DNA of 64,000 nucleotides from Torymus aiolomorphi (Eukaryota > Arthropoda > Insecta > Hymenoptera > Torymidae): the NCBI GenBank assembly GCA_036365515.1, contig CM070876.1:102052310-102116309 (forward strand), written 5' to 3'. Shown here in pieces: positions 9,335 to 52,400 of the stretch; position 1 is the first letter of the stretch, and the number at the start of each line of letters is the position of its first letter. The position numbers and the translations under genes are program-made. Below the pieces are notes generated by a model, which made no database searches, had not been told where the DNA came from, and saw only the letters and a program-made list of their open reading frames with translations.

Positions 9335-10641
9335 GAAGGTCATATACCAAAATTATCATCAAATGAAAATTTACGTTTCCCAGAAATACCTGATGTTGTT
9401 AAAAATTTATCATAATAGAAGAAAGAATGGTTTCACCTTATATTCCATTCATGCAAATTAGAGCTTTACAACCATACGCATTAAACTCTCAATTGTCTTT
9501 AAAAGGCAGTGTTGTTAACATATATACTGAAATTAACGATATGATCAGTGTTTTGCCTAGAAACTTTGACGAAATGTCAGTTATACAAATCAAATTAAAA
9601 AGACATTTAGATCATAAAACTCATTATATGTATGAAACAATTAAACCTTCTAAAATATTTGAAGCCTTAAAATATCTTATAAATACACCGTTATATAAAA
9701 AACATCATATAAAAGTAAATGATGAATTTTTCAAAGGATTTGAAAGAAATAGTGAAAATGATGTAAATTTTATTGTTGATGACTTTGACAAATCTAATAA
9801 CAACAACTGTAATAACAACTGTTATAATATAAATACTATATCAAATGAAATACAAAATGTAACTACAGACAATAACGAAAAGGATATAGAAGATGATTTC
9901 GAAGTAAATGACGAAGTTTTAATTTTAGATAGAAATAAAGAAATTATTTCAGATGTTATAACAATAGCTCCAGGACAAGACAAACAACCTGTACCGTCGC
10001 ATAAAGTTGAAAATATTGATGAATTATGTTTTCCTAAAATTTTTGGAGGCCAGATATTAGATAAAGAAAAAAAATTAACTTACACTGAACGTACATTATC
10101 TGAAATCAGACGTCGTGATAGAAGATCTTGGGAACCAACTAGATTATTATTCATGGCAAAACAAAAAATAGAAAAATCAGTTTTTTCAAATATGAATACA
10201 TGCTTGCGAAAAATTAAAAACAATGAAAATCTATCTGCAGAACATGTGTTAAATCAAAGCAAATTGCATGATGTTTTCAAACAAGACAACGGTTTCATGT
10301 TTTTGAAACAAGTTAGATTCTCCCCATATTATTGGCAAAGCAAAAAAAAAGAACTTTTTTCTGTTATTAGACAACTAGGTATACCAACATTGTTTATGTC
10401 GCTTTCTGCCTCAGAAATAAAAAATTTTGATTTATTAAAAATCTTATATAAGCTTCAGTACAAAAAGCCAATTAGTACTGAAGAAGTTCTTAATCTTGAT
10501 ATGGATACAAAAACTAAATTAATCAAGAACGATCCAGTAACTTGTGTAAGATATTGTCACAATAGATTTTGTAATATTATGAATTTATTAAAAAACCCAT
10601 ATGGCCATTTAAAGAACATTTTATTATTGACAGTTTTTTAA
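9335..10641 (+). pseudogene. Helitron_like_N region of the Rep/helicase protein
   Basis: The frame from 9335 (GHIPKLSSNENLRFPEIP) shifts at about 9415 into the open frame 9427-10641. Recognisable Helitron segments are EERMVSPYIPFMQIRAL, LKRHLDHKTHYMYE, PSKIFEALKYLINTPLYK, an Asn/Asp-rich linker, SEIRRRDRRSW, FSPYYWQSKKKELF, RQLGIPTLFMSLSA and DPVTCVRYCHNRF. This part precedes the HUH motif in intact elements and belongs to the replication-initiator half. The frame ends at 10641 and the protein continues in the frame of 10626-11129, so one frameshift separates the halves. Confidence 0.85.
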
Positions 10642-13638: not shown

Positions 13639-15576
13639 CGTCAAAGATATTATGAATAATTTAAAAATAGATTTGAATTTGATTCCAATATCTGCAATAG
13701 ACGTAATTATAAATACAAAAGAAAATATCAAATAGTTAGAAAACAAATACCAGTAATACCAGCTGAAGCTATAACAGTTCATAAAAGTCAAGGTCAAACT
13801 TATGATAAAGTTTGTATAGATTTTACAAAGTTTACTAAATTTAAAAGTAGGTCATTATTTTACGTGGCGTTAAGTAGAGTTAGGCAATTATCAGATTTAT
13901 ATATAATTGGCAATTTTCCAACTTTAAATAAAACAAAATATGATGAAACAACAAACGTAATAATGAATAATTTGAAATTAAACAAAAATTTAAAATTATC
14001 ATTTACAAAATGTATTCAAGAAAATGAACTAATAATAATTTATCAAAATATTAGATCTTTAAATAAAAATTTCGATTACATTATTAATGATCACTGGTAT
14101 TATCAAGCCGATATTATGATATTTTCTGAAACGTATACAAAAGATTCAGATACATTTGAAATCAATGGATATAATATCATATATAGATCTGACAGTAACG
14201 TAAAATATTCTAAAGGGATTATTTGTTTTGCTAAAAAAGAAATACATTATGATATTATTAAAAATGTTACTTATAATAAAACTAACATGTTACATCATCT
14301 TGATATGGTCATGTTAAAAATAAATAACACGTACATTTTAACTGGATACAAATCACCCGCCGTTGACAAGCAAACATTTTCAAGTCATTTTAAAACATTT
14401 GAAATAAATAAATACAACAACAATAAATTTATTATAATTGGAGATTTCAATTACGATGCTTTTTTAGAAAATAACTTTATAGAAAAATATTTAACTCATC
14501 AAAATTTTAAAAGAGCACTTCCAACAAAAATTTCGACTACAAATTTTAACACTCAAATAGATATTATTTTTATAAATAAAGAAAATAACCATTTTGAAGC
14601 TCGAGTGTACGAAACTTACTTCTCAGATCATAAACCAATTTTCATTGGTTTATCTGATGATAATGGAAAAAATAAAACTAATGAAACTTTCATAAATGAC
14701 ATTGATAATCATAATATTAATAAAAATATAAATAAATACATTAATGTTGATAAAATAGATAACGATATAACCGATTTAAATATTATTGGATTACCAAACA
14801 AAGACAATGTATCTTGCTATGCTAATGCAACCATACAATCATTGTTTCACTGTAATACATTCAGAAAACACCTTTTTATTTTTCAAGAAAACGACTGTTT
14901 AAAAGAAATATTTTCATTATATAAATCAAATCATTTTGATGTATTGGAATTTAGTCAAATTATAAACAAAGAATATGCATTATCTATACAACATGATGCA
15001 GCTGAATTTATCATGGATATTTGCAAAAAATCAAAATTATTGAAAAATGTTATTGAACATGAACATATAACTGAAATATTCTGTCCAAATTGTAAAAAAC
15101 TTAAACAAGAAAAGACCAATAATATTATAATTACATTAACCATACCTCCAAAACAAAAAATTTTTAATTTACAGGAAATTATCAATGATAATATAGATAA
15201 TTACAAAAATTTAGATATAAATTGTAATAATTGTCAGGTCAAATTACAAAACAAAACAAAAGTAATTATTGCAAGACATAAAATCGTTATTTTACAATTA
15301 ATGTTATTTTATATCGATAAATCAATAAACATAACAAAACTGACACAATGTAAAATAGAAAATATTACTAGATCCAATATATACATAGATAACAAAATTT
15401 ACAAAGTCACTAACGCAATATTTCATCATGGCCCTAACATTGATTCAGGACATTACACAACTATGATAAAGCAGAATAATACATGGTTTAAAGTAGACGA
15501 TTCAAACATAAATAAAAGCAACTGGCCTAAATATAGTAAAGATATGTATATAATATTTTTAGAAGAAATACAATAA
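13639..15576 (+). pseudogene. Helitron helicase C-terminus fused to AP-type endonuclease and ubiquitin-specific protease
   Basis: Apart from one TAA at 13657 the frame is open. It starts with helicase motifs (AEAITVHKSQGQTYD, then YVALSRVRQL). From about 14040 an exonuclease-endonuclease-phosphatase domain follows: YQNIRSLN, SETY, IIGDFNYD, QIDIIFIN and FSDHKP (catalytic Asp-His). From about 14780 comes a C19 peptidase (USP): Cys box NKDNVSCYANATIQSLFH, IQHDAAEF, two zinc-type CxxC pairs (CPNC, CNNC) and His box DSGHYTTMI with WFKVDDSNI. All three catalytic positions look present. The endonuclease is known in Helentrons; a USP in this place, rather than an OTU protease, is unusual as far as I know. 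Substrate and need are unknown. Confidence 0.9.
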
Positions 15577-23818: not shown

Positions 23819-25137
23819 TTAATATACAGGTATATTATTATCAAAAATATAACTAGAAAGAGTTTTGTATATACTGGGGTAGTTGAAGGGAATATTTGAA
23901 AGATTTGAGCGCAGAGGCACCCCCAACCTCCTGCATTCACGCAACAGAGGAGATCTGTGGTTTGAGAATAAGGGATAATTCGACACTAAATGTTCGACGT
24001 TATGGAGGCTTTCACCACACTCACAACTCTCCTCCACTACAAAATTTTTGGAGGCCAGCTGTGCCCTGGCTCGGCTATGTCCACTGCTGAGTCTATTTAA
24101 AATGCATACTTGTCCCCTGCTGAGTCCCCCAACCAGGAAGAACCTGGGGGAGAACACAAAATTGTCTATTTGTGAAACATAGAGTCTACCCTTCCTAGCG
24201 TTACCATAATTCCTTACATATTTCAACATGTTATTTTGGAGGTCTTTAAGTAAAATGGGTAAAAGATCTTTGGGTGGATAGAGAGAGAAAACAATATTAT
24301 CAGATTCACATACTTTTTTAGCAGCATTATCGGCAATATCATTTCCTGTTATATTTTTGTGGGCAGGAACCCAAAAAATTGAGAGTTTAATATTTTTTGA
24401 AAGTAATCTATAAGCATCCCTCCTTATGAGATAAATAAAAGGGTGCATTTTGGAGTCTAAGCCATTACATTTTAGTTTATCCGTAATACCCATCGAATCA
24501 GTAAAAATTACAACTGAATCAAAACTGAGACATAAGGCATGATCCAAAGCTCTCCATAAGGGCATAGAGTTCCGTAGACCATACCGAGATCTCGTCGGCT
24601 ATTCTAGCGGCAAATACTGATTGACTCTGATGCGAAAAGATAGAAAAACCTTTCTTGTTACTATACGTACCAGAGCTATCTGTGAATAAAATGAGGGTGT
24701 TAGGGTTGAATGTGCTGACAAGCTTCATCTACTCTTCCTAAGGGTTTTTTGTCTTAGTTTCCAGGCCCCACTTCGTGTTAATGACATCATCAATAAATAA
24801 AATATCATAGGGGCAAAAAAACGTTGGAAGCATACTTAGTCTAAGCATTTTTGATAATGATTCCAGCATATCTAACCAAACATGAAAAATTAAACTATAC
24901 CTTCGCGTCCTGTTACCCGGTCTGGAAATGTTGCAGAATTCTTTTATATAGTACAATTTAGAGATAATCAAATTATCGATTTTAGCTTGAAAAGACACAA
25001 CCATACGATGGGCGATATATAACCTCCTGGCCCTAAGATGGGGAATACCTGAAATGTGATGCAAAATATTGATTGGAGTAGTGATAATACATCCTAAACA
25101 GATCCTCATAGCACGATTTTGTAAAGTATCTAGTTTG
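23819..25137 (-). pseudogene. ORF2 C-terminal part: RT thumb connection, RNase H and CCHC tail
   Basis: Reading down from 25137, KLDTLQNRAMRICLGC directly continues the RT part that lies on the far side of the DNA transposon. RNase H follows in two overlapping frames: LILFTDSSGTYSNKKG and EISVWSTELYAL, then VIFTDSMGITDKL and IKLSIFWVPAHKNITGND with the final DIADNAAKK. Near the end, SCECGESLHNVEHLVSNYPLF is the cysteine/histidine tail common in such LINEs. Frameshifts occur near 24730 and 24540. RNase H would remove the RNA template during target-primed insertion. The stop codon is at 23819-23821. Confidence 0.88.
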
Positions 25138-25141
25138 TTAA

Positions 25142-28100
25142 GGGGACAAGCCATGGTTGAACCTGAAAAAAAGCTATTGTATTAATTCTTTAATAACAAA
25201 GCCAATATATAATTTTAAGAGTTCAAACTTTTTTTTATTATTAAGTTATACAATTACCTATAATTTAAGACTACATCATCCAGGTGTTTAAGATTTTGGT
25301 CTTGCAGTCCATTAGATTAAGAAACCCTTTTGAATTAGAAACTGGCATGTCATTGCCGCAGGAAATTTTTTGAACAAAGCAAGGCAGGGGTCTGCTTACT
25401 TAGGAGTACCTTTGTAGTTATACCACTTATAGAAAATGTGAGCTACTTTTTTTTTTTTTTTTTTTTAAATTGTTTTTTAATGAAAAATCTAATTTTTTTA
25501 TGTTTTTTTTTATTAAAATTTCAATATTTTTTGTAATTTTATTTTATAATTTTTTTTCTAAAGCCTTTTTCAAAAAAGTACCTCACATTTTCTATAACCA
25601 ACACAATTTTAAAGATACTCCTAAATTTCCAAACCTCTAGCCTGCTTTATTTAAAAGAAATCCTGCGGCAAAGTCCCTGTAAATACAAAAAACAAGTTAT
25701 TCAGAAATTCAATTCAAAGTTTTGGTTTTCTATAACTTTATATAAGTTTCAAAACTACTTACCAAAAATTTTTTTTTTCATTCTGTATGATATACTTTAG
25801 TGGAAAAAATGAAACAGATGCCAATTAGATGAAAGTAGTCCTGGCTAAATCATTTTAAATGTTGAATAAACCTATAAAAAAGAATTTCATTAATTCAACA
25901 ATATTTTTAAATTTTTTAGATTAATACATAAATGTTGTACTTATTTTTTTTTTTCGTACTAGGCTGAAAACATTGTTAGTCATAAATGTTATTGACAGTA
26001 AAAATAACCTCAAAATAAATTAATCCTTTTATGAGAGCCAATAACACACCTGTAAAAAGAAAAAAATTAATAAATATTATATTAGCTATTATCGCATAAA
26101 AATAACTTTTTACCTACTCTAGTAAGAACCTGGTGCATATGACTCTTCAGGTAAATTCAATTGCAGTCTTCTTCGTTTTCTCCTATTTTCTAAAGTATTT
26201 TCTTCGGCATTCCTCTCAGCATGAAATAATCTGATGTCATTGCTTTTCTGTGCCCACTCAATTGCAGCTACTCCAGGTTTCACATCAAAGGCTTCCATAA
26301 TATTCAGAAAAGCAACTCTTCCATCGTTGAAGCAAGTGACAGCAATACAAGCACCTGCTGTGAGCACATGTACACCACTGAAGGAGGTCTTGGTTACAAT
26401 CTTCCAAACTGAATTATTAAAACTCTCATTACTATTTTGGGTGTAACCGCCTAAACATCTGTGAAGCAGCTCCTGTTCAGAGAGATCTTTGTAAATTGGT
26501 TTCAACTGCTCCATAATCACTGCAGGAATACTGCCTTTATGATGAAAATCTTTTAGTTTTTTTTAGCCTTCGCTTTTTGCCACTTGCACCAACTGCTCTG
26601 TCCTGGTGGGCATAAATGATGTTGAGGATTCTGGTCTGTGGAAATCTTGTGGTAGTACGTAGCCCATATAGCATTCAGCATTTTTTCTACAGAGTCCGTG
26701 TTGTTTCTGATGGCATTACCATAATATGTGGTGAGCTGATCAATTACTTTTAATCGTCCTTGGCCTCCAATGGTTTTTCCATCGTCTAATAACTTTTTTC
26801 CAAAATTTTTCTTTAAATTCCTGAGTCTGGTTCCCATTCGTTTCTGGACGTGTCCCACACACTCCTTCTTTTCAACTTTAACTTCATCTCCATACGGTTT
26901 GGCCTGGCACAAAGCACTGTACACTTTCGAATCTCCATCTCCAATGTAATGATGGTATTTTACATTATACTTTTCTTGAGATCTTCTAAACATTTCCACA
27001 ACTCCATCGACTTCCATCTTTCCAGCACTCCCTTCATGGTTTGCTGCACATTTATCTTGATGATCACTGAACCAGTCTTCATATTCTTCTGTGCCTTTTC
27101 TATTTTCCCACTTTAAACATGCTTTACAAAAACTGTTCTTGATAAATATGTCAAGAACTTGTTGAGAACGCAAGCCAATCAAACTTGAAATTCCTTGCAA
27201 TGAAGAAAATCCTCTTTTTCTCCATGACCCATCACCAGATACATCTAGGCCTTGATTTTCAGCTGGTGTTAATGCTGTTTCCTTTTTGACGGCTTCTTGC
27301 ATAGAATTTTGTGCTACCTCTTGAGTCACTTTGCTTAAATCTTCATTGAGATGGTCATAAAAACTATGTGCAACAGGTGGTGGCAAATCCATGATTCCGC
27401 AAAAAGTTTGCAATGCAGCATATCCTTGCCCAATTGCTCTTAGTGCAAGAAGACTGCGTCTGTTGGTTTCATAAGCATTGCTTTGAGCTCCAACTTGCTT
27501 GCTCGTGCTTATAATTCTTCTCTCTGAACAATTTTTGCACATAATATTAAATTTGGAGCCAAGTCCTTGAATATCTTCTTCTATAATTTTAACTTGTTCT
27601 TTACATGTTGCACATACAAGAAATTTCTCCAGCTGTAAGAACAGAATGTTTATATCTATTATTCTGTTTCTTGTTTGTGACGCTTCTACAGATATATCTT
27701 TTATTTTCCCTGAAGTTGTACTTCTTTTCCTTTTGTTCGTGATTTTTTGTTGAACATTCTCTGAATTTTTGTTAAATCCTTTATGTTTTTTTTTTTTCTT
27801 CCAAATTTTCTCTTCTTTCCTGGAGCTCCTGATGTTCTATTTCTCTTGTCAGAATCCATAGTGGCTAATATCTAATCCTCTATAATGTTAGTTATTAAAA
27901 AACACAAATAAAAGTCACTCACTGAACTCACTAAATTAAAAATATTAACAACACTTTGCACAGTGCAGTTAACCTAAAATCGCTGTCTTCTACACTCTCA
28001 GTTAAAAGAGTTCTACACAGCACTTTATTTACAAAAAATTTTTTGTCAATACTGAATAAATTGCATTGAAAAATGCAGATTCAATTATATTCAAAACACT

Positions 28101-28521
28101 TTTAGTTTAAATCCCAACGACTATGGCGCTGACAGAACGTAAACAGATGAGATTTTAAACCATCTATATGTATTGTACGTATTATACTTTTGTATAAGTA
28201 GAGTAAAAGTAAAATACACGAGGTTTATACCTCGAGTTAAGTTTGCCTACTATGTCAATGTACATTTACGTTCTAAATTCAGTATTGTATGCTGTGAAGC
28301 ATAAAATAATATAAGATTAACAATAGTATATCTAAAATGGATAATTTAAGAAAAATCACTAAATATGCAAAAAAGTGACTTCACGGTTTTAGCTGTATTT
28401 TCAAAACGAAATCGAATTTGGAAATGCGGTTGGAAGCATAGTATTCAGAGGAAAATTTGCTATCAAAATAGTACATAAAAAAAAAATCGATTTTTCGACC
28501 CCCTAACCATGGCTTGTCCCC
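25142..28521 (-). mobile_element. Kolobok-like DNA transposon, 3380 bp, in a duplicated TTAA
   Basis: The ends GGGGACAAGCCATGGTT and AACCATGGCTTGTCCCC are perfect 17 bp inverted repeats flanked by TTAA at 25138-25141 and 28522-28525. TTAA duplications are typical of Kolobok and piggyBac. The encoded protein is of the arthropod Mutator-like DDE type (Pfam group 'Mutator'), not piggyBac, so Kolobok is preferred. Removing the element and one TTAA rejoins the host retrotransposon frame (GSRSKLL then NKLDTLQNR). It is therefore younger than that retrotransposon. Confidence 0.88.
26119..27859 (-). pseudogene. Kolobok/Mutator-like transposase, two homopolymer frameshifts
   Basis: This DDE-type transposase would cut and rejoin element ends. 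It starts at 27859 (MDSDKRNRTSG). A shift in the 12-base T-run near 27787-27797 leads into FLVCATCKEQVKI and the long frame below 27542: CKNCSERRI (second zinc CxxC), DVSGDGSWRKRGFSSLQG with the probable first catalytic Asp, YHHYIGDGDSKVY with the second, and CVGHVQKRMGTRLRNLKK. A further shift in the poly-A run near 26560 leads to IMEQLKPIYKDLSEQELL and HRCLGGYTQNSNESFN, where the final Glu is likely. Length would be about 575 residues, normal for the group. Both breaks are in homopolymers, so sequencing error rather than decay is possible. Confidence 0.85.
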
Positions 28522-28525
28522 TTAA

Positions 28526-30161
28526 GTAGTTTGGATCTCGAACCAGCGAATAAAAAGGCGGCCCAGTCAGCTCTAGGTCTAACTATAGACTTATAGAAGG
28601 TAAGAGCTGTACTGGGATGTATCCCCCACTTATTTCTGCACAAAAATGACAGCATATTAATGCCTAATTTTAATGAGTTAACAGTTTTCTCAATATGGTC
28701 ATACCAGTCCAAATTAGCATCCCAAATGACTCCCAGATATTTAAGGGATCCCGAATTAAAAATGCTCATGTCGTTCAAATTAACTGCTATGGAACCTGGT
28801 CTTATTCCACCTACGTTGAAACCAAAAAAAATTAGAGAGCATTTATTAAATGCAATTTTGAGGTTAATATTAGTAAGCCAATTGTATAGTAGATGAATAC
28901 CCTCATTTAGCTTGGCCCTTATAATTTCTAAATTCTTATTTCTAAAATAAATAATTATGTAGTCCACAAAACCCAAGATCCTAAGATCTACAGGGATATA
29001 AGAGTAAATCTGGCAAATATAAAGGTTAAAAAGAAGGGGGGACAGAATACACTCTTGGGGAAGACCTTTATTGGTAAACGCCTCCTTAAACGGAACATTG
29101 TTATAAAAGCCGATAATATGTCTATCACTAATGAGATTAAAGATAAATTTGTTGAAAATAGATGGAACACCTAGGTCTTTGAGAGTTCCCAATAATACTT
29201 CAAGGTTAACCTTATCGTATGCTCCTTCTAGATCAATGATAAGAACTCCCAATAAGTCACCTTTTTCTCTAGCTATAATCGAGTGTAAGTGAAGAGTAGC
29301 TAGGCAGTCCGCATAAGATTTGCCCCTGCGAAAGCCATTGAAGGATTTTGGCAATAAACCCTTACCCTCGCTCCACCACATCAGTCTATCATTGAGACAT
29401 CTCTCCAAAGTTTTGAGAAGAGTAGAAGCCGGCGATATGGGCCTATAACCTTTGTCCTTGCCCTTAGGGATGAAGCAAATCTTAAACTCTTTCCAAAGCG
29501 TGGGATAAGTGCCAGATTTGAAAATGTGATTATAAAATGATGTTAACTATTGAATGCAGTTGATGGGCAAATTTTTGAGTATTGTATATGAGATCCCATC
29601 TAATCCAGGTGCCGAATTTTGTTTGCTACCTTTGATCGCATTGAAGACTTCCTTTAGTGAAATATCAGCTTGCAGACACGGATCAGTGGAATCTCCAAAG
29701 TTGAAGTTCTCTAAATTCTCATAATGATAGCTACTGGCTATTTTACTAAAAGCCTCCATCAAAGGAGTATTATTCTCCGGGGTATTGTTATCAAGAGAAG
29801 AAGATGAAGGATTGTAAAACCTATTCTTAAATTTTTTAATAATTCGAAAATTCTCCACTATGCGTCTAGACGGGTCCATGGATGAAATAAAGTCTCTAAA
29901 ATTACTTTTTTCTATCAAATTCAGAGAGGAAGAAACCTCTTTTGAGACTTTCTTAAAGGTCTGCAGATTTTCAACAGTGGGGAATGATTTAAAGATTTTC
30001 AAAGCTTCTCGTCTTTTCGAAATCAAATCAGTGCACTCCTCATTCCACCTGATGCAATCCGGAAATTTCTTAGAAGTAGAACATGCGCTTGCTTTCAAGA
30101 AAACCGGATCATCTGAAGGCGAGGAAGAGTCTGGAATATTAACCTTACCACCAGCTTTCAA
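28526..30161 (-). pseudogene. ORF2 reverse transcriptase of the I-type retrotransposon
   Basis: Downstream of an RT linker (FPDCIRWNEECTDLISKRRE), the RT motifs appear: NSAPGLDGISYTILK, then after a stop near 29547 TYPTLWKEFKICFIPKGKD, RPISPASTLLKTLERCL, FNGFRRGKS, VLIIDLEGAYDKV, NKGLPQECILSPLLFNLYI and LGFVDYIIIYF, followed by SLKYLGVIWD. The catalytic segment should contain two adjacent aspartates (A-D-D); here it is V-D-Y, so the enzyme is inactive by substitution as well as by frame breaks. The frame continues to 28526 and is then cut by the TTAA-flanked transposon. Confidence 0.92.
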
Positions 30162-39999: not shown

Positions 40000-40198
40000 T
40001 GAAAAACATCTGTATGGATGTATGTGTGTGTGTGCGTGTGTGTATGTGTGTGTGTGTGTGTGTGTAAGTGTGTGTGTGTATGTATACGCCTAGATCTCAG
40101 CTTCTACCCGACGGATTTTTCTCGTTGACGGCTCATTTTTTTCGTTTTTTTTTTGTGCGATGGCGGGTCAAAAGTTCGTTTTTTTATTTTATAGATTC
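40000..40198 (-). repeat. Interspersed repeat family R1, copy D, first part
   Basis: GT-rich tract, then ATACGCCTAGATCTCAGC and CGACGGATTTTTCTCG, equivalent to the start of copy B. It is interrupted after ATTC at 40195-40198 and resumes at 42199. Confidence 0.8.
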
Positions 40199-40423
40199 TG
40201 TTACGCGCCTAGTATTAATTATTAATACTTAATAAATAGTATTAATTATATTTATAATTATTAATGTTAATAGACTCTCCGCGCCGGTTTACGCGTAAAA
40301 CTGTATATAGCGCATTTGAATTTTCCCGCGCTGCGCGCCGACCCGCCTGAGAGCAGTACGCGGCGCCGCCGCCAGGCGGCTACGGCCCTACTTTTGCGCT
40401 CGCCAAAGTAAGTAAGCGCGCTC

Positions 40424-40535
40424 CGGGGCATATAAGCCCCGCGCACCGACGCCTCGGCAGCCTTATTTCCCCCGACACCCCCTACATAGTAGGACGGTCT
40501 CAGCCTCGGCAGAGTAATTTCGGGTGAATAAAGGA
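40424..40535 (+). promoter_or_regulatory. Putative TATA promoter and early poly(A) signals in the insertion
   Basis: CATATAAGCCCCGCGCACC gives a TATA-like box. AATAAAGG follows about 100 bases on, with a second AATAAA at 40548. This resembles the promoter/poly(A) arrangement of an LTR, which would make the downstream ORF part of a long U5 or internal leader. Sequence-based inference only. Confidence 0.45.
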
Positions 40536-40663
40536 GATTTTTGATTAATAAAAACCTTGAGTTTTTATTTACGAGACCTATTGGTCGCGTTTTTGAAGAG
40601 TCTTTCCCGGCTCATTTCCCTATCTCTTCCTACTTATCCTTCCAGTGTGCGCCTTCTGGATTT

Positions 40664-41269
40664 ATGTCCTCCGGCAAATTCCGGGCTCTCGAGGCGGAAA
40701 AGGAGCTCCTTCGGCTCCGCCTAGGGAACATCGTCCGGGAGCAGGTCTTGGAAAGGCGGCGACTCAGGAAGCATCTCCTCCAGCAGCACCAGCAGGAGCT
40801 CAACGACCAGGCCCGGAAGTGGGCCAAGGACCGGGCTCAGCTGCAGGCCAGCCACGAGCTGGAGATTCGGCAGCTGCGGGAGCAGAGCCGAGCGGAGTTA
40901 CAGGAACTCCGAGAGCAGTTGCGGCGAGCGCAACCTAGCGCCGCCCCTCCGCCTCCTCCGGCAGTGTCTCGGACGTACCAGTTCGTAGACACTCCGCCCA
41001 CTGGCCGAGAACGCCCTTCGTTGGAGCTGACTGTTCGGCGAATCGCCGCAGGAGCGCCTCCGGCTCCTAAGCGCATCGCCTTAGTGGATCTGCCGCTCAC
41101 CGAGAACGTCCCAGCGAAGAAGGCCTGCCGACCCCCGCCCGCTCATCGGAATGAGCCGGTCCTTCGAAAAAGGACGCAGCCCGTCAAACCAGGCAAGACG
41201 GCGATAAAGCGTCGGGCGGCGCTAGAAACGACCTCTCTCCCGGAAGCCATCATCGACCTCACGGTCTAA
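40664..41269 (+). CDS. Coiled-coil protein with terminal SUMO-interaction-like motif, unrecognised
   Basis: The 201-residue protein starts at MSSGKFRALEAEKELLRLRL. The frame is open further upstream, but a CTTCCAG acceptor-like site lies just before this start. Residues about 8-90 are a charged heptad-rich coiled coil (QQHQQELNDQARKWAKD, ELEIRQLREQSRAELQEL). A proline run, a basic middle (PAPKRIALVDLP, RKRTQPVKPGK) and the last residues EAIIDLTV follow; IIDLT is the classic hydrophobic-D-L-T form of a SUMO-interacting motif. Base composition is far richer in GC than the window, and in-frame codons end mostly in G or C. It might be a Gag-like or accessory protein of the insertion that carries it. 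Not recognised beyond these features. Confidence 0.6.
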   Translation: MSSGKFRALEAEKELLRLRLGNIVREQVLERRRLRKHLLQQHQQELNDQARKWAKDRAQLQASHELEIRQLREQSRAELQELREQLRRAQPSAAPPPPPAVSRTYQFVDTPPTGRERPSLELTVRRIAAGAPPAPKRIALVDLPLTENVPAKKACRPPPAHRNEPVLRKRTQPVKPGKTAIKRRAALETTSLPEAIIDLTV

Positions 41270-41302
41270 GGGCCGCGCTCACGCGCTCCCCTTAGTTTTG
41301 GC

Positions 41303-41330
41303 GAGTCAGTTCCCGTTTTGGAACTGACTC
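41303..41330 (+). terminator. 11 bp perfect hairpin just after the coiled-coil ORF
   Basis: GAGTCAGTTCC and GGAACTGACTC pair around a CGTTTT loop, 33 bases after the stop codon. The position suggests an RNA 3' element. 'Terminator' is used loosely; the function is unknown. Confidence 0.5.
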
Positions 41331-41391
41331 CCAACTTTAATCAAACCCAAAAATAATCCCCGAAGCAGGGTGGTGTTGCCTACACCGAGCC

Positions 41392-41499
41392 AGGTGGTCT
41401 CGCCCTACCACCTAGACCCAGGACCAGGGGTTGACACAGGGGGGATAGTGCTGTGTCCTCCCCCTGTGCAACGAGGGAGCATCAGCGACGAGTCGTCGC
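41392..41499 (+). other. Three further hairpins preceding the array
   Basis: AGGTGGT/ACCACCT (41392-41413), CACAGGGGG/CCCCCTGTG (41435-41468) and GCGACG/CGTCGC around AGT (41485-41499) are each perfectly paired. They continue the hairpin series of this insertion. Confidence 0.6.
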
Positions 41500-41540
41500 C
41501 TCTGCAGGCACGCTCTGCCTTACAGCTCGCCTCCGGCTCC

Positions 41541-41900
41541 GGTTGACGTCGAGCGGTTGCTCCGTCAACCCTCTCTAAGCGTTCAGCGAGCGCAGCGAGC
41601 ATACTCCGCTCGCAACCCCCCGAGATTGGCGTCGAGCTATTGCTCCGCCAATCCTCTTCACGCGCTCATAGCACAGCGAGCACTCACAGCTCGCACCCAG
41701 CGGTGGTTGGCGTCGAGCTATTGCTCCGCCAACCCTCTCCAAGCGTCCACAGAGCGCAGCGAGCATACACAGTTCGCAATCTGCCTTGATCGACGTCGAG
41801 CTATCGCTCCGCCGATCCCCTCTCGCACTAAGAAGCAGCCTAGCGAGCGCCTGCAGCGCCTCCCTGCATCGATAGACGTCGAGCTATTGCTCCGTCTATC
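41541..41900 (+). repeat. Array of five covarying 30-nt hairpins, ~83 bp period
   Basis: The hairpins are at 41541-41570, 41624-41653, 41705-41734, 41788-41817 and 41871-41900. Stems are GGTTGACG/CGTCAACC, GATTGGCG/CGCCAATC, GGTTGGCG/CGCCAACC, GATCGACG/CGCCGATC (one mismatch) and GATAGACG/CGTCTATC. The 14-base interior TCGAGCTATTGCTC is nearly constant and itself pairs GAGC with GCTC around a TATT-type tetraloop, leaving a TC bulge. Stem positions 2, 4 and 6 change on both strands together. Spacing is 83, 81, 83 and 83 bases, so the reading frame is not kept, which argues for nucleic-acid structure rather than a peptide repeat. Between hairpins CAGCGAGC words recur. Confidence 0.85.
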
Positions 41901-42130
41901 ACCTACCTATGCTCACAGGATACATCGGATACGGATAACTTCGCTCCAGCTCAAGTCTGAGCACAACCCTGCGCGCTCAAGCGCTCTCCAGCACTCAGAG
42001 TGCCCCTCCTCTTGGTGCGTCGTTCTCTCGCAAACCGAGACAACCGGCCTACACCAGAACAGGCATTCGTGTAAATTACCAGACACAACATCGGTCTGAA
42101 GTGCTGTCGGCATACTCGGCATACTCAAAA

Positions 42131-42146
42131 TCGGCTAGCGAGCCGA
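42131..42146 (+). other. Terminal hairpin near the insertion's 3' end
   Basis: TCGGCT and AGCCGA pair around AGCG, about 50 bases before the end of the insertion. Confidence 0.6.
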
Positions 42147-42198
42147 TCCCTCGAGTAGAGCGCTCACCAACGCCCCCCGAGTGCTCACGCCTACATCA

Positions 42199-42750
42199 AT
42201 TCGTTTTTGTTTTATGGTCAATTTTCGATTTCCAAAAATTTTATTTTTGAGTTTTTTCAGGAATAGGGTGAGGATATTGCAATCGAACAAACACCATTTT
42301 AAAGAGCAAAACAATACCTACATTTCTAAAAAAAACCGTCTCGATAAGTGTCGTGGTTCTTTTGTTTTTTTTAATAGATTTTTATTTAAAACTCTTATAA
42401 CTCCGTACCTAATCGAACAATTGCTAAAGAAAAAATCATGATAACGTACAATAATAGTATCTATAGCAGGTAGAAATTTCAAACCTTTCTCTTGACTAGT
42501 TTTCGAAAAAAAAGTTAAAAACAAAAAAAAAGAGTTTTCTATGTCCAACGATTACGGGAGTAAAATTGACTTAATCGGTTTGAAATTTTTTGTAGAGGTA
42601 GATATTATGTAGCTCGAGGCTAAGTTCTTTGCGCTACAAGATTGGTCCATAAATTTCGGAGATATTTGAGGTTAAAATTTTTTTAACCTTTTTTTAAGTC
42701 ATAATATCTCAAAAACGGCTTTATGTATCTGAATGGGGTAGGTCATCACA
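42199..42750 (-). repeat. Interspersed repeat family R1, copy D, second part
   Basis: It resumes after the insertion with ATTCGTTTTTGTTTTATGG and contains the TTTCGGAGATATTTGAGG and AAAACGGCTTTATGTATC segments shared with copies A-C. Open frames on both strands are repeat by-products. Confidence 0.8.
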
Positions 42751-42784: not shown

Positions 42785-42926
42785 GCCTCGCAACGTTAGC
42801 TCACTGGTCAGAGCACCGGACGGGAAATCTCGCGGTCGTGAGTTCGCGTCCCGGTCGTTGTATATTTTTTACGCATCTTGTTCATTTCAATTCGCTCCAT
42901 AGCCTCTTCATACGTAACAATACATT
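42785..42926 (+). mobile_element. tRNA-derived SINE or LTR fragment ending CGTAACA
   Basis: GTTAGCTCACTGGTCAGAGC forms a perfect D-arm (GCTC/GAGC) and A box, and GAGTTCGCGTCCCGG is a B-box-like segment. CAACG...CGTTG could pair as an acceptor stem. Position 33 of the anticodon loop is not T and the T stem pairs badly, so it is not a tRNA gene. It ends CATACGTAACA, like the solo LTR at 3331-4101. Confidence 0.55.
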
Positions 42927-46469: not shown

Positions 46470-49400
46470 GTGAGTATTTTAATATTTATTTATATATTTT
46501 TAAAAATATTTTTTTAAATATTTATTTTTCATTTTGTGGTATTGCTAATAAATTAGAAAATAATTCTACGTCTAATTCTGTGGATATAATAATACAGAAA
46601 TAAAAGCTAAAACAACTTAAAGAAAATATAGTATGACAAATAATAGTACATTATATGTAACAAGGGGCGAAAGTAGCAGTTTTTATTTACTGTACGAGCG
46701 AAGCGACCCTTGAGGAAAATCTACTTTTGAACCGTGTTATGTATAGTATTTTATTCCACACTCGATCATGACCACCTTTTGTCTCTGAAAAATTTATATT
46801 AAAAATTCGTTATTTTTTTGTGAAAATTCGCTAAATTTCGTCATTTTTCCATAAACAGTGTTATTAAGAAAAATTTACTTTGAACCTGCAAAGGAGATCT
46901 GCGAGGACTATATGCTTCTTTTGCCCCAAATTTCAGGAGGAAAAAGTGGCGATAATGGTTGAGTGTGTGGAATAAATATATTTCAATGCAATATATACAT
47001 TTAAACAACAATCCTCTTTTCAATCAAGTCTTACGTAAATTTATTTAATAATAATTATGAAAATGTCGATTTTTAACTGTGTAATATTTGTTATAAATAA
47101 TGGTCGGAAAATAAAAAGGAGATTTAAATCATGTTTATTATGTCCCATGTTCGTTTTCAGCTCCTAAAATATTTTCATATCTGTCATTTTTAGACACGAC
47201 CGCTCCTCTGTAGGGCCTTATAATTTCACTAAGGTGAAATTCGTAACTCACCGTATTATAACGATTTAAGGTGTAGAAAATGTTTTCTACGCAAAATTAG
47301 TTCATTTCTAGTGTTCCTTATGATGCATGTATATGGATGTACGTATATGCAAGCAAAATCTTGTAGGCACATTTTCTTATATAAAAATTGATCGAATCAC
47401 TCTGGGAAAGAAATCTTATAATCTGCTACTCGCAAATTGGTGGCAGTCCCATTTTAGGAAAGATCCATTCATAATTATATAATTGCAGTCACATATAAAA
47501 ATACGAAAAACCGTGTTTTTCGCTATAACTTTTCCGGATCTCATTTTACTAAAAAATGTTAGAAACAAAAGTTGTAGATAGTAAAAAAAACAAAACTTTT
47601 CGCTGTTGAACATTTTTATGTAAAATTAGATCCAGACCAAGAAAATTCTAAAAAACGCTTAAAATATTAATTTTCGGCTATTAAACTGACAAGATTTGGT
47701 TTTCCGTACGATTACGTACGTTTGCGAACGTTGCCGTACGTTAAAAAGTAAAATTTGATATTAACAAAAATAATTTTTGGGGTAAATGTACATTTTTATA
47801 GTTTTTCCTACGTTGCTGCAGATTTTTGTACATTTGCGTACGTTGGCGTACGTTCACGTACGTTCGCGTACGTTTCGGTACGAATGTCCGAATCGTAACG
47901 AAAATGTACGCAAACGTACGTGAACGTACGCATATGTACACGTATATACGTACGGAAATCTATAGCAGCGTATGATTTATATTTCCATTGGGATAAGTAA
48001 ATCATTAAAAAATATATATTTTCTTTTAAGAGCTTGCTAGCGGATCAACAGCTACGGAAACGTTTTCAAATACTGACAATGCGATTGCTTTAGAAAGAAA
48101 TGGTACGTACATTTCATAAAACCATTGGATGTAAAAGAATTGTAAAAATGTTTTATGTATATTTTTATTTTATTTTTACATAACTTATTTTTCTCTTGTA
48201 GTGCATATATTATTTTTCGTCCTAGTAAGCGTAAAATGCGCTCTTTGCGTTCTCAAGAGAGGGAGTAAAACGTGCAATTTATGCATACTATGATGAAAAC
48301 TATTATTTTATATGCATTTATGGATTTATTTTATTATTTTAAATGTAATTTTTATTCGATTAATCTCACGAAACATCCTTTTTAAAACACTATTTAAACA
48401 TGATTTTTGTAGACATGGAGGATTTACTGAACATAGCAGTTAAAAATAAACCTATTATTAGAAGTCAAGAAGTATTAACTAAAAAATATGTATTGGTGGA
48501 TGAAAGGCGAAAAACACAAAACACTAAAAATATCAAAACGGAAGATGATGAAGGTAATATAATACATGCACAGAGATATGATCTATTAGCGGTAAGAAGG
48601 AAATCCTTTCGTGAAAAATCCTCTTGAAGTATAAGAATTATCCTTTCCAATAAAAATTATTATAATAGCGATGAAATTAAGCAGTGATTGTCGCATTTGA
48701 TAAATGTATGGTTGATCACTTCTCGTTTTAAATGAAGGTAGTTCCCTAAAATATCAAAAAGTGGGTTTGAAAAATAAGAAAATTCAAGCGTATACTTTAA
48801 AATCTAATCAATTTTTCTTTATTTTTTAAAATATAAGTAGCCGACCTATTTTTTGAGAAAAACATTATTGAAATTAGTTATTTTAACACGGCAGTTAATT
48901 GGAACCACATTAATTGTAATAGAAATTAATAAAGTTTACTACTTTAAATCTGGGTTTTCAAAAATCAAAAAATATTTTATTAAAGGTTCAATTTCGCGCT
49001 TTCTTCTGAATAAAAAAAATATGTATCAAGCCGACCTTCTTAAAAAGATATAAAAGGTTGTTTATTTTCTACTTTATGTGTATATTACCTTTTAACTCAA
49101 AAAATCATAGATATTCATAAATAACTTTGTCACATATGATTTAACTAATTCAAATGTTAAATAATACTTATTTTTTCGCGATCACTGTATTGACTCACGA
49201 GTTGCTAGAGAAATGCTTAAAAAAATGAAATAAATATTGAAATATATTTGAATGTATTCTAAAAATTTATATAAGTATATCTTCGGGTGGGAAGAGGAAG
49301 GTTTTATCTGGGCCAAGCGTTGAAAAAGGTTCTATTTGAGCCGCGCGTTACAAAAGGTTCTATTTGGGCCGAGCGCTGAAGAAGGTTTTATTTGAAACGT

Positions 49401-52400
49401 TCTTCTTTTTAGCAAAATTTAAGTTGTCAACGCGCTACCTTCGAAAGCTTGAAAATTCATTTAAATTTATCATGACTATAGTCATGACTACGCGCTACCT
49501 TCGAAAGCTTGAAAATACATTTTCAAGCTTTCGAAGGTAGCGCGTTGACAACTTAAATTTTGCTAAAAAGAAGAACGTTTCAAATAGAACCTTCTTCAGC
49601 GCTCGGCCCAAATAGAACCTTTTGTAACGCGCGGCTCAAATAGAACCTTTTTCAACGCTCGGCCCAGATAGAACCTTCCTCTTCCCACCCGACGATATGT
49701 TATATAACTTTATATTTTGATTTTGTGTATATATATAACGTTTCTTTCTGAAGAAAGTTTTATATTTTCTTGAAACAGAATCGTTTTGATTCCAGAACCA
49801 ATTGTCTGAAAAGGATATTCCTTTTGGGGCAAAAGGATTACATTTGGCTCAAGTGGATGTTTCTCTGCTTGTATTGTGAAATTTTAATATCTAAAATTGC
49901 TAATTAAATATTTTTCATTTAATACAGTCGATGTTGATACGGATTTGGAAAAATTGTACCAGTTAAATAAACAAGGTATAGTAATATAAAAGTCGTAATA
50001 GTACAGTACGACTTTATGTACACCCAACTCCAGGGATTCTTGCCGAACGTGTCCTCTCAGTTTCAAAATTCAGTTATTTTATCTTTTGATTCCGTTGTAA
50101 AGGTTGTGGTTACACTCGAATTGTCCAATAAAATTGCAAGATTTTGAATCTGAGAGGACACGTTCGGCAAGAATCCCTGCCCTGGAGTTGGGTCTATATA
50201 CTTGTACCACTCGAAATACAGTTGCGTGTAATCGTTTACATGAACTGTGAGTAACATTCTTGATATAGTATGCGTCAACTACTGCAATACACAAAAGTGC
50301 TAATAAACAAAATATTTTAATGAAAGTAGAATCAGAGTAGAATGAAAAGCGATGAGCGAACGTAGGAAGTGAGCCTCACAGAAAAAGATAATGTAAAGAT
50401 CATACATTTGTTATAATAATTTATTTAAAAATGCCTACAACGCACACACACACATACACACACACACATACAGACACACACATACACACACACACTTTTA
50501 AATTAAATTTAAAACAATGAACTTGTGCAATCAAAAATCTCAATAGAGCATATAAAAGTATCACTTCATGTTCCGAAAATAACGCACGAAAGAGGTATAT
50601 TACGTATACTACATCAAAAAGAATTTATTATTAAATAGTATATTAATATTTTTGTAACTGAGCAAATCGTTGTTCTTACCAATTAAGCAAGAAATAGATT
50701 GACATTTTGACAAATAAGTAATTTTTCTGTGATACGATTAAATAATAAATTCGTTGATTATGACTAAAAAGATGCTTCTTCAGTGCCTATTTTGAATACA
50801 CTTTAAACATTATTTTTAGCAAGTAAAAAAATATCTGTAGATAACACAACGAAGAAACCGAAGCCGATTCACCCATCCCAAAATGATCCTCCCGAGGATG
50901 CAGATGACTCAGGTAAATGCTTTTAATACATCACAGCATGAGGTTCGTACTATTTATTCACCGAGTTGAGAAAAGCATATTGGAGCGAAATTATGAAGTA
51001 AGACGGTAACTCTTCCTTCGTTTCGGCCGTATACAAGTACAAACTTGATGGTAAACACTTTGGATACTCGTGGTCTACTTTATGCTCTTAGTGAAAATAA
51101 ATTATTACAGATTTTCCTATCACAGATAAAAAAGATTCCTTGTATTTAATGAATAAATACAATTGCTAACTCGTGAGTCTGCTGCAGACTCACTCGAAAC
51201 GTCATCAAAAGTGCAGAAAAGACATCAGAATAAATACTCTTAGAGACGGAAAAACGCGTGTGTATGTAAAGAATACTTTGATGATAATAGATATTATTGA
51301 AATAAAGTCTGAATCAGTATGAACATAAAGAAATTTATAAATTTGATAGAAAAAAATTCGTGTGCGTACAGGTTATACAGCTGATTAACACGCAACTGGT
51401 CGCCCTCGCGGATGCATAATTACAAAATCTCCAAAACCTAACTTTTAATTAACAATGACTTGTACATAGTCCAAAGCCATATTCATTAACTGTTAATGAA
51501 TGGTCTTAAATACAAAGAATCTTTTCTCTCTGTGTATATTAATAAGTAGGTTGAACAAAATCTTAACTCAGTGTTCTCCCAAAAATGGTGGTATCACAAT
51601 GCGCTCGACAATAAGATCAGCTGTAAATAAGTGATTATATAAGGTAGTATATCGGCGCGTTCAGCGCTGATGCAAAACTTCTCCTTTCACACCGAGTTAA
51701 GATCTCGCTTCTGATAGCTGTTTTTATTTATCAATTGAAACATTGAGAAATCAGTGTTTAGTAAATACATACATTACTTTTTGCAGATAATAGTAGTATA
51801 ACCGACACGGGCCAACCATCAACATCGAAAAGTAAGCGTTTAATATAACTTTTTCATTATTCTTTTCACAACATGCATGAATTCTATGAAAATAGATTTT
51901 CTTTGAGCACGTTAAATATATAGTAGATTTCAATAACACTTCGTGCAATTCTCATTTTCGTTATTTTATCAAGCTACACTGAAAAAATGTTTGGAGCGCG
52001 CCGGCATATGACAGGTTACTGTAAATAGTTCTGAGACGTAGACTTCAATAGTATAGCTCGTGAAGCCATACTAGTACTTGAAGAGCAGAGTCGTTGATGT
52101 AGCCAAAAAGTATGGTTCCCATGACAATCTTCATTTACCATAAACATTTACGATGTCTTTGGTTAGAAAATTGCCTCGAAATCTTAATGCTTTTAACGAG
52201 ATTTCCATACGGTTTCGAGCATTCACGGTATGAAATATGTATTTTCTTAAATGAAAAAGAAACATAATTCAGACCTTTATACATTATTTATTACATTATG
52301 TTCTGTTATATATTATTTCATACATTTTCATTAGGTTATCTGAATTCTAAGTCATATGGTATGGCTCTCCGATCTTTTCTTTGGTTTCTTTATTACGCGC

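Follow-up and report, generated by a model that had tools for sequence, protein, structure and literature searches.

Why should a row of short hairpins in an insect genome keep its arms complementary while the letters of the arms change? The question is raised by a window of 64,000 nucleotides of Torymus aiolomorphi DNA (assembly GCA_036365515.1, contig CM070876.1, positions 102,052,310 to 102,116,309, forward strand), where five tandem hairpins are found at 41541-41900. The array lies in the long terminal repeat (LTR) of a Ty3/gypsy-type retrotransposon, and hairpins of the same design are found in related families. The reading that we favour, tentatively and with a confidence that falls just short of even, is that the array could act in the leader RNA as a multivalent docking site for an arginine-rich protein, each hairpin presenting a module that resembles an arginine sandwich.

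The hairpin array and its carrier

The five 30-nt hairpins reported in the initial annotation are all present. Hairpins 1, 2, 3 and 5 are recognized by sequence inspection, folding and a pairing table, and hairpin 4 by folding and the pairing table.

41541..41570, plus strand: array hairpin 1
41624..41653, plus strand: array hairpin 2
41705..41734, plus strand: array hairpin 3
41788..41817, plus strand: array hairpin 4, with a single A-C mismatch that shows no variant in 30 loci
41871..41900, plus strand: array hairpin 5

The start-to-start distances are 83, 81, 83 and 83 nt, a spacing that does not keep a reading frame, and the five units have the interior TC-GAGC-(TA/GG)T(T/C)-GCTC in common, all as claimed. 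In each hairpin the outer stem has 8 bp and the upper stem 4 bp (GAGC with GCTC), with two bulged nucleotides between them on the 5' arm and a loop of 4 nt on top. The covariation of stem positions 2, 4 and 6 is likewise as described, with four perfect stems and the one mismatch in unit 4. Nine of the 12 pairs are constant, and these three have changed on both arms; 59 of the 60 cells in the pairing table are paired and six are changed on both sides, two values that none of 500 shuffles reaches. Folding energies are -15.5 to -19.2 kcal/mol for the four perfect hairpins, with z of -4.1 to -5.7 against shuffles, and -11.1 kcal/mol for unit 4 (z -1.6), which 16 of 200 shuffles equal.

The hairpin sequence pattern is GGCGTNGAGCNNTNGCTCNGCC, and the core pattern, with up to three mismatches allowed, gives five matches in the window against 0.16 expected. 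A scan for the architecture irrespective of sequence (seven or eight of the eight outer-stem pairs, 2-nt bulge, 4-bp stem and 4-nt loop) finds five instances in 41270-42198, where 1000 shuffles average 0.02 and never exceed 1, and 95 in the entire AT-rich window, a count made without shuffles. What is rare is not the architecture alone, but five hairpins with one core inside 0.9 kb of GC-rich DNA.

When the host genome (1.08 Gb, 21 contigs) was searched with the array region, 40 of 89 candidates were scored, with identities of 97-100%. The window family, here called F1, is represented by 30 loci including the window's own. Homology in these mostly begins at window position 40199 and stops near 42198-42201, and four loci lack part of one end. 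By a perfect 4-bp duplication at each flank, 16 of the 30 are recognized as solo LTRs (ATTC for the window copy). Five have TTGGC(G/A)CCCAA directly after the LTR, five have ACGGTGAGGAAT directly before it, and four have neither a duplication nor either flanking sequence. The two groups of five loci make up five LTR pairs, thus five full-length elements, that measure 6.6-7.2 kb from start to start and differ by 0.95-1.4% between the two LTRs. Two of these elements were scanned against Pfam in six frames (gag, protease/reverse transcriptase and neighbours), giving Retrotrans_gag and RVT_1 above and Ty3_capsid below the cut-off; the frame downstream of reverse transcriptase (L270:3258-4175) has no Pfam match. 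The primer-binding site, directly downstream of the LTR in full-length copies, is TGGCGCCCAACGTGGGGCTC, which we take to resemble that for a lysine tRNA.

40195..40198, strand not applicable: left target-site duplication ATTC, equal to 42199-42202
40199..42198, plus strand: solo LTR of 2000 bp with TG...CA ends, from a Ty3/gypsy-type LTR retrotransposon, as given by the copy boundaries and by five copy pairs that are both LTRs of longer elements
42199..42202, strand not applicable: right target-site duplication ATTC, equal to the left copy

Because the LTRs are paired with gag and reverse transcriptase between them, have TG...CA ends and are flanked by 4-bp duplications, the 2-kb piece belongs to a Ty3/gypsy-type retrotransposon as one of its LTRs, and the copy in the window is solo. 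The "2 kb insertion" of the initial annotation is more exactly a solo LTR. A terminal-repeat retrotransposon in miniature (TRIM) is ruled out, since the piece is one LTR of elements that hold gag and reverse transcriptase between two such LTRs.

Related families and the constant module

Relatives were collected from the same genome by a search with pol (the protease/reverse transcriptase part), in which 91 of 11761 candidates were scored and 30 loci obtained; the family names F1-F6 and F1p are coined here. A model, R1, was built from the five window hairpins and run on 25 related loci. It matches in seven of them, from F3 (L286), F4 (L292, L293, L296), F5 (L294) and F6 (L302, L303), families whose pol is 61-73% identical to the query. 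In all seven the sense strand gives the best match, and in the loci that revealed a primer-binding site it falls within the final ~450 nt of the LTR. Hairpins are also present in two new F6 copies, L307 and L309; L306 and L308 cover the loci L302 and L303 again, with more upstream sequence. Unit numbers in the four F6 copies are 3, 5, 4 and 4, at distances of 102-106 nt. Over all copies read the number ranges from 1 to 5, some arrays being cut by the end of the locus.

The sense-strand R1 matches, minus identical sequences and the incomplete unit L296:1-25, and with L294:1-23 also set aside, leave 23 distinct hairpins. Pairing was scored over 11 of the 12 pairs, the top pair being omitted for loop gaps. 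Of the 253 cells, 92.9% are paired and nine are changed on both sides (six in the window units, two in F4 and one in F3), and again neither value is reached in 500 shuffles; slid structures give 27.5-52.6% paired cells. In 19 of the 23, one of these without any outer stem, the fold predicted by energy has an open bulge and a closed upper stem; F4 unit c (L292, L293), L308a and L308b are weakened by mismatches. A U-G wobble is found in nine hairpins, all from F6. The claim that pairing and not sequence was kept is accordingly borne out for pairing, which extends to four further families, and has to be corrected for sequence, since the U of the bulge and the pairs above it have likewise changed little or not at all.

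The module that is kept consists of the bulge and the pairs around it. All 23 hairpins have the 2-nt bulge, and its first base is always U, while the second is A in 12, C in 10 and U in one. The pair directly above the bulge is GC in 19, GU in three and AC in one, and the next two layers are AU and GC without exception. Below the bulge the pair is GC in 20 and GU in one, and two hairpins have none. Loops of 3, 4, 5 or 7 nt occur when hairpins of all families are counted.

A comparable arrangement is described for the trans-activation response element (TAR) of human immunodeficiency virus type 1 (HIV-1). According to passages of PMC11885821, U23 of the bulge is essential, position 24 can be any base and the bulge can lose its third base, as it has in HIV-2; the U23-A27-U38 triple is flanked on either side by a G-C pair, and swapping these pairs abolishes binding. 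In the preformed motifs of 7SK, the corresponding part of PMC6189040 states that classical sandwiches have the sandwich base in a G-C pair. The hairpins studied here have a bulge U and an A-U second pair above it (each 23/23), with G-C in the right orientation on both sides of the A-U layer (upper 23/23, lower 19/23). Judged by sequence and predicted structure, the kept and the free positions of the module match the determinants of arginine binding that these texts report for TAR.

Position in the leader and possible roles

The signals that place the array in an RNA are predicted, and are as follows.

40429..40436, plus strand: TATA-like box CATATAAG, predicted from sequence and from a matching layout in F6 copy L309; the start is assumed ~30 nt downstream
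40527..40552, plus strand: two AATAAA motifs (40527, 40547), predicted end of R, from sequence and the matching layout in L309
40664..41269, plus strand: open reading frame 0 (ORF0), 201 amino acids, with a predicted long N-terminal helix and a basic C-terminal part, and a homologue in F6 (frame call, structure model, BLASTP)

A further AATAAA is found upstream, at 40231. The F6 copy L309 has the same order, with TATA at 65, AATAAA at 161 and 183, ORF0, the array and the LTR end. The array follows the predicted TATA and poly(A) signals, and in full-length copies the LTR that holds it runs directly into the primer-binding site. It is therefore probably part of U5, which by these signals would begin at about 40560, and so of the leader at the 5' end of the genomic RNA. 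It is found ~1.1 kb from the predicted transcript start, beyond the AATAAA motifs, and the gag frame opens ~70 nt past the LTR (L271:1898-2677).

In the structure model of ORF0, made from a single sequence, the helix at residues 3-89 is confident and the remainder is not. ORF0 of F1 and of F6 are homologous (BLASTP E 2e-7 in a single comparison), with 47/148 identities to L309 and 20/44 to L306, and both end in or near DLTV. An ORF0-like frame in F2 gives E 0.012 against F6, the divergence being too great for certainty. No homologue of ORF0 was found at E 1e-3 in the protein database and none in viral contigs, and the LTR has no match in plasmids. The ORF0 of F6 carries TQT motifs, three in L306 (449-1072, plus strand) and two in L309 (2406-3197, minus strand), and a frame in L289 (4089-4382, minus strand) has one; these resemble binding sites for dynein light chain (LC8). 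The ORF0 of the window family has no TQT motif, but does have the predicted long N-terminal helix.

The sense strand of the leader is poor in AUG. Between 40460 and 42198 there are three against 10.8 in shuffles, of which 3 in 1000 are equally low, and between 41270 and 42198 one against 6.8 (2 in 1000 equally low); for CAT the numbers are 19 against 19.5 and 11 against 13.0. After ORF0, all four related F6 copies have no AUG, where 3.4-4.5 are expected (1-7 of 500 shuffles equally low), and 3-6 CAT against an expected 4.7-5.9. In the tails of F5, F3 and F2 the AUG count is 0 where 2.3, 1.8 and 1.6 are expected. This depletion suggests a sense RNA that is scanned or translated in F1 and F6. 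Because of it, and because U-G wobble is kept in F6, sense-strand RNA is the best-fitting candidate for the acting strand.

We infer that the hairpins would be a cis-acting RNA array in the predicted U5, between ORF0 and the primer-binding site. The outer stem of each would present the constant module, that is a 2-nt 5' bulge starting with U, then G-C, A-U, G-C and a small loop, and an arginine-rich protein might dock multivalently on several tandem hairpins. This protein could be encoded by the element (Gag or the basic part of ORF0) or by the host, and docking may mark the full-length RNA for packaging, or help ribosomes to reach gag past ORF0. The place in the LTR, the conserved pairing in several families and the unchanging module are read from sequence itself; the limits of U5, RNA as the acting molecule, the docking protein and what it does are inferred. 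If the module does bind such a protein, the recognition known from TAR and 7SK would also occur in tandem in a retrotransposon, so that arginine-sandwich recognition might have a longer history, or arise more readily, than supposed. The array would then offer a natural multivalent tag on RNA, and a testable case of selection on leader RNA structure among Ty3/gypsy-type elements. Even without binding it is a well-bounded case for weighing selection on RNA structure against palindrome repair by template switching. A far bolder version holds that a Ty3/gypsy-type lineage evolved its own Tat/TAR-like system independently of the lentiviruses, with an arginine-rich ORF0 protein reading the tandem sandwich hairpins and so controlling elongation, export, translation or packaging; this we consider improbable.

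Lentiviral transcripts start with TAR, which is part of R and has a hexaloop contacted by cyclin T1. The array is like the TAR of HIV-1 and HIV-2, and like stem-loop 1 of 7SK, in having a lower stem, a 5' bulge that starts with U, G-C/A-U/G-C above it and a free second bulge base, and it is further like TAR in lying in the leader of an LTR element's RNA. It differs in being tandem where TAR is single, and in lying in the predicted U5, ~1.1 kb from the predicted start. By this position, which is judged from predicted signals only, and by loops of 3, 4, 5 and 7 nt the array falls outside the lentiviral TAR, and we know of no Tat-like partner for it. Retroviral leaders have several stem-loops near the primer-binding site of the genomic RNA. 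The array resembles these packaging signals in that respect, but it is upstream of the primer-binding site, repeated and built on an invariant bulged module, and its role in packaging is putative.

Other elements are alike in single features. The insulator of Drosophila gypsy likewise consists of tandem units in the 5' leader of its element; Su(Hw) sites are, however, double-stranded DNA in AT-rich surroundings, while the units of the array, compared by eye with the Su(Hw) consensus quoted in PMC2374998, are GC-rich inverted repeats. The rice element Retrosat2/RIRE has long LTRs and an extra ORF0 ahead of gag-pol; the portion of PMC3485330 that describes it puts this frame upstream of ORF1 and leaves its location relative to the LTR unstated, while the ORF0 found here is inside the LTR; the likeness is one of layout. 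Retrozymes, the LTR hammerhead elements outlined in the summary part of PMC9695139, have a structured RNA motif inside the LTR as well. The window has no Rfam match above the gathering score, and the two sub-threshold matches in the LTR (E 2 and 8.5) are not on the array. Among titles and the opening lines of abstracts in the open literature, no published account of such a hairpin array was found.

Several observations weigh against the docking array. Shuffles of the window array give at least three covarying pairs in 107 of 500 cases, and at least the observed variety of pair types in 359; for the 23 hairpins the corresponding numbers are 66 and 423. Outside the window family covariation comes down to three cells in two families, and the hairpin of F3 favours another pairing. 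All 11 outer-stem changes in the 30 F1 loci (2400 cells) are one-sided, seven of them in single loci and two shared by two loci each, and in one F1 element the bulge U of unit 2 is A in both LTRs (L262, L265). Compensated changes in other genomic copies, which the initial annotation wanted checked, are seen in these three cells (F3 and F4), with none among the outer-stem changes of the F1 loci. Of eight invariant columns five are in the module, and the other three are in the outer stem. The seven sandwich columns have 4 minor letters in 161, equally low in 1335 of 200000 random column sets (599 of 200000 draws when counted by family), figures that are descriptive, as the hairpins share descent and R1 derives from F1. 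One listing of hairpins required a bulge T and GAG/AAG; R1, without that demand, gave the same units. AUG depletion is not found in F4 (4 against 5.3).

The array is also missing in at least two related families. R1 has no match in one copy of F1p (pol 90-91%; L310 and L279, from the end of ORF0 to the LTR end), in L280 or in the 516 nt of LTR tail in L295, and no array is seen in the tails of L288, L289 and L290 (ORF0 to LTR end). As F1p and F2 are multicopy and yet do without it, the array is not indispensable, but useful or tolerated. In the pol tree F3-F6 form one group, L295 branches outside it, and F1 is joined with F1p; the rooting is by midpoint only and leaves loss and gain of the array undecided. 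Taken against the suggestion of a functional RNA or DNA structure, sense-strand RNA as the best fit and hairpins kept in four further families speak for it, while the thin covariation outside F1 and the absence of the array from related families do not.

The same points favour an array without function, a tandem hairpin repeat whose stems match by descent and by template switching during reverse transcription or replication (quasi-palindrome correction). Tandem repeats and long hairpins are known to invite such switching, related multicopy families lack the array, the outer-stem changes of the window family are uncompensated and the number of covarying pairs is not convincingly above shuffles. 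Correction should, however, also erase the bulge, which is kept in 23/23, the unit 4 mismatch, which is invariant across the 30 F1 loci, and the wobble in 9/23; since all three are kept, palindrome repair is disfavoured. It also speaks against correction that the U of the bulge and the A-U and G-C pairs above are constant while the loop, the second bulge base and parts of the stem vary. We consider this explanation rather unlikely. Minor letters in F1 number 23 in 4500 hairpin positions and 48 in 6300 spacer positions, mostly in single loci, and are not taken as proof; the loop "C" of unit 4 is private to the window copy, the other 29 of the 30 loci having T.

A translation element is also unlikely, slightly more so. 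Here the structured, AUG-poor leader would bring ribosomes to gag after ORF0 by internal entry, shunting or reinitiation, and the hairpins would be structural and no docks. The order of ORF0 and gag, with its frame so soon after the LTR, the length and AUG poverty of the leader in F1 and F6, and the folding of 41270-42180 (z -8.2 against 20 shuffles) are all in line with this, while F1p and F2 have the end of ORF0 without the array, and the invariant bulge U is left without a reason. An array that acts as DNA is quite improbable. It would be a cluster of protein-binding sites in double-stranded DNA, as those for Su(Hw) are in the gypsy insulator, with which it shares tandem order and a place in the leader, or a set of cruciforms. 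A sequence-read site is disfavoured because the arms stay complementary, by changes not expected for such a site, and of the 23 hairpins 16 have the better fold on the sense strand and six on the minus strand, with one tie.

Other leader structures and neighbouring features

The leader contains further hairpins outside the five units.

41303..41330, plus strand: hairpin A, an 11-bp perfect stem after the ORF0 stop, from folding and family comparison
41430..41472, plus strand: hairpin X, a family-variable stem around G(T/A)GC(T/A)GT(A/G)TCC, from a pattern search (the stretch being the search pattern)
41595..41613, plus strand: second hairpin type, GCGAGC-7 nt-GCTCGC, between units 1 and 2, from a scan
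41676..41694, plus strand: second hairpin type, between units 2 and 3, from a scan
41759..41777, plus strand: second hairpin type, between units 3 and 4, GCGAGC with GTTCGC, from a scan

Hairpin A has a similar stem in F1p and a different one in F2, while the stretches scanned in F3 and F6 have no stem of at least eight perfect pairs. The stretch of hairpin X is present in F1, F1p, F2, F3 and F6, with stems that differ between families and a weak fold in F1p; outside the window it is found in L286, L288, L289, L290, L306, L307, L309 and L310, thus also in families without the array. Both A and X are present in the L310/L279 copy of F1p (pol 91%). Hairpins similar to the second type occur in the stretches scanned in F4, F5 and F6, and none in that of F3. 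In six of the 30 F1 loci a deletion of ~440 bp (40919-41359) has removed the tail of ORF0 and hairpin A and spared the array. Four of the six are LTRs of two full-length elements, and since both LTRs of each carry the deletion, the form without these parts has moved, perhaps with help in trans.

Two other candidates were rejected. A coding role for the array is not supported, as the 180-aa frame across it (41557-42099) has no Pfam match and the unit spacing breaks the frame. The core pattern gives 116 matches among viral contigs and at least 119 among those of prokaryotes, which are read as chance because each of the 80 matches listed per scan is the single one in its contig.

Elsewhere in the window, ARAGORN calls no tRNA at 42805-42860, a tRNA-like stretch with look-alikes of the A-box and B-box (by eye) that is perhaps a piece of a short interspersed element. 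Two arrays of 28-bp repeats, 49298-49394 and 49581-49678, are mutual reverse complements ~190 bp apart, judged by eye, and look foldback-like. The other genes recognized with Pfam are mostly from mobile elements: RVT_2 at 94-1386, a Helitron-like N domain at 9427-10641, a frame with Exo_endo_phos and ubiquitin hydrolase at 13864-15576, RNase H at 23819-24565, a Mutator transposase at 26553-27542 and RVT_1 at 28503-29408.
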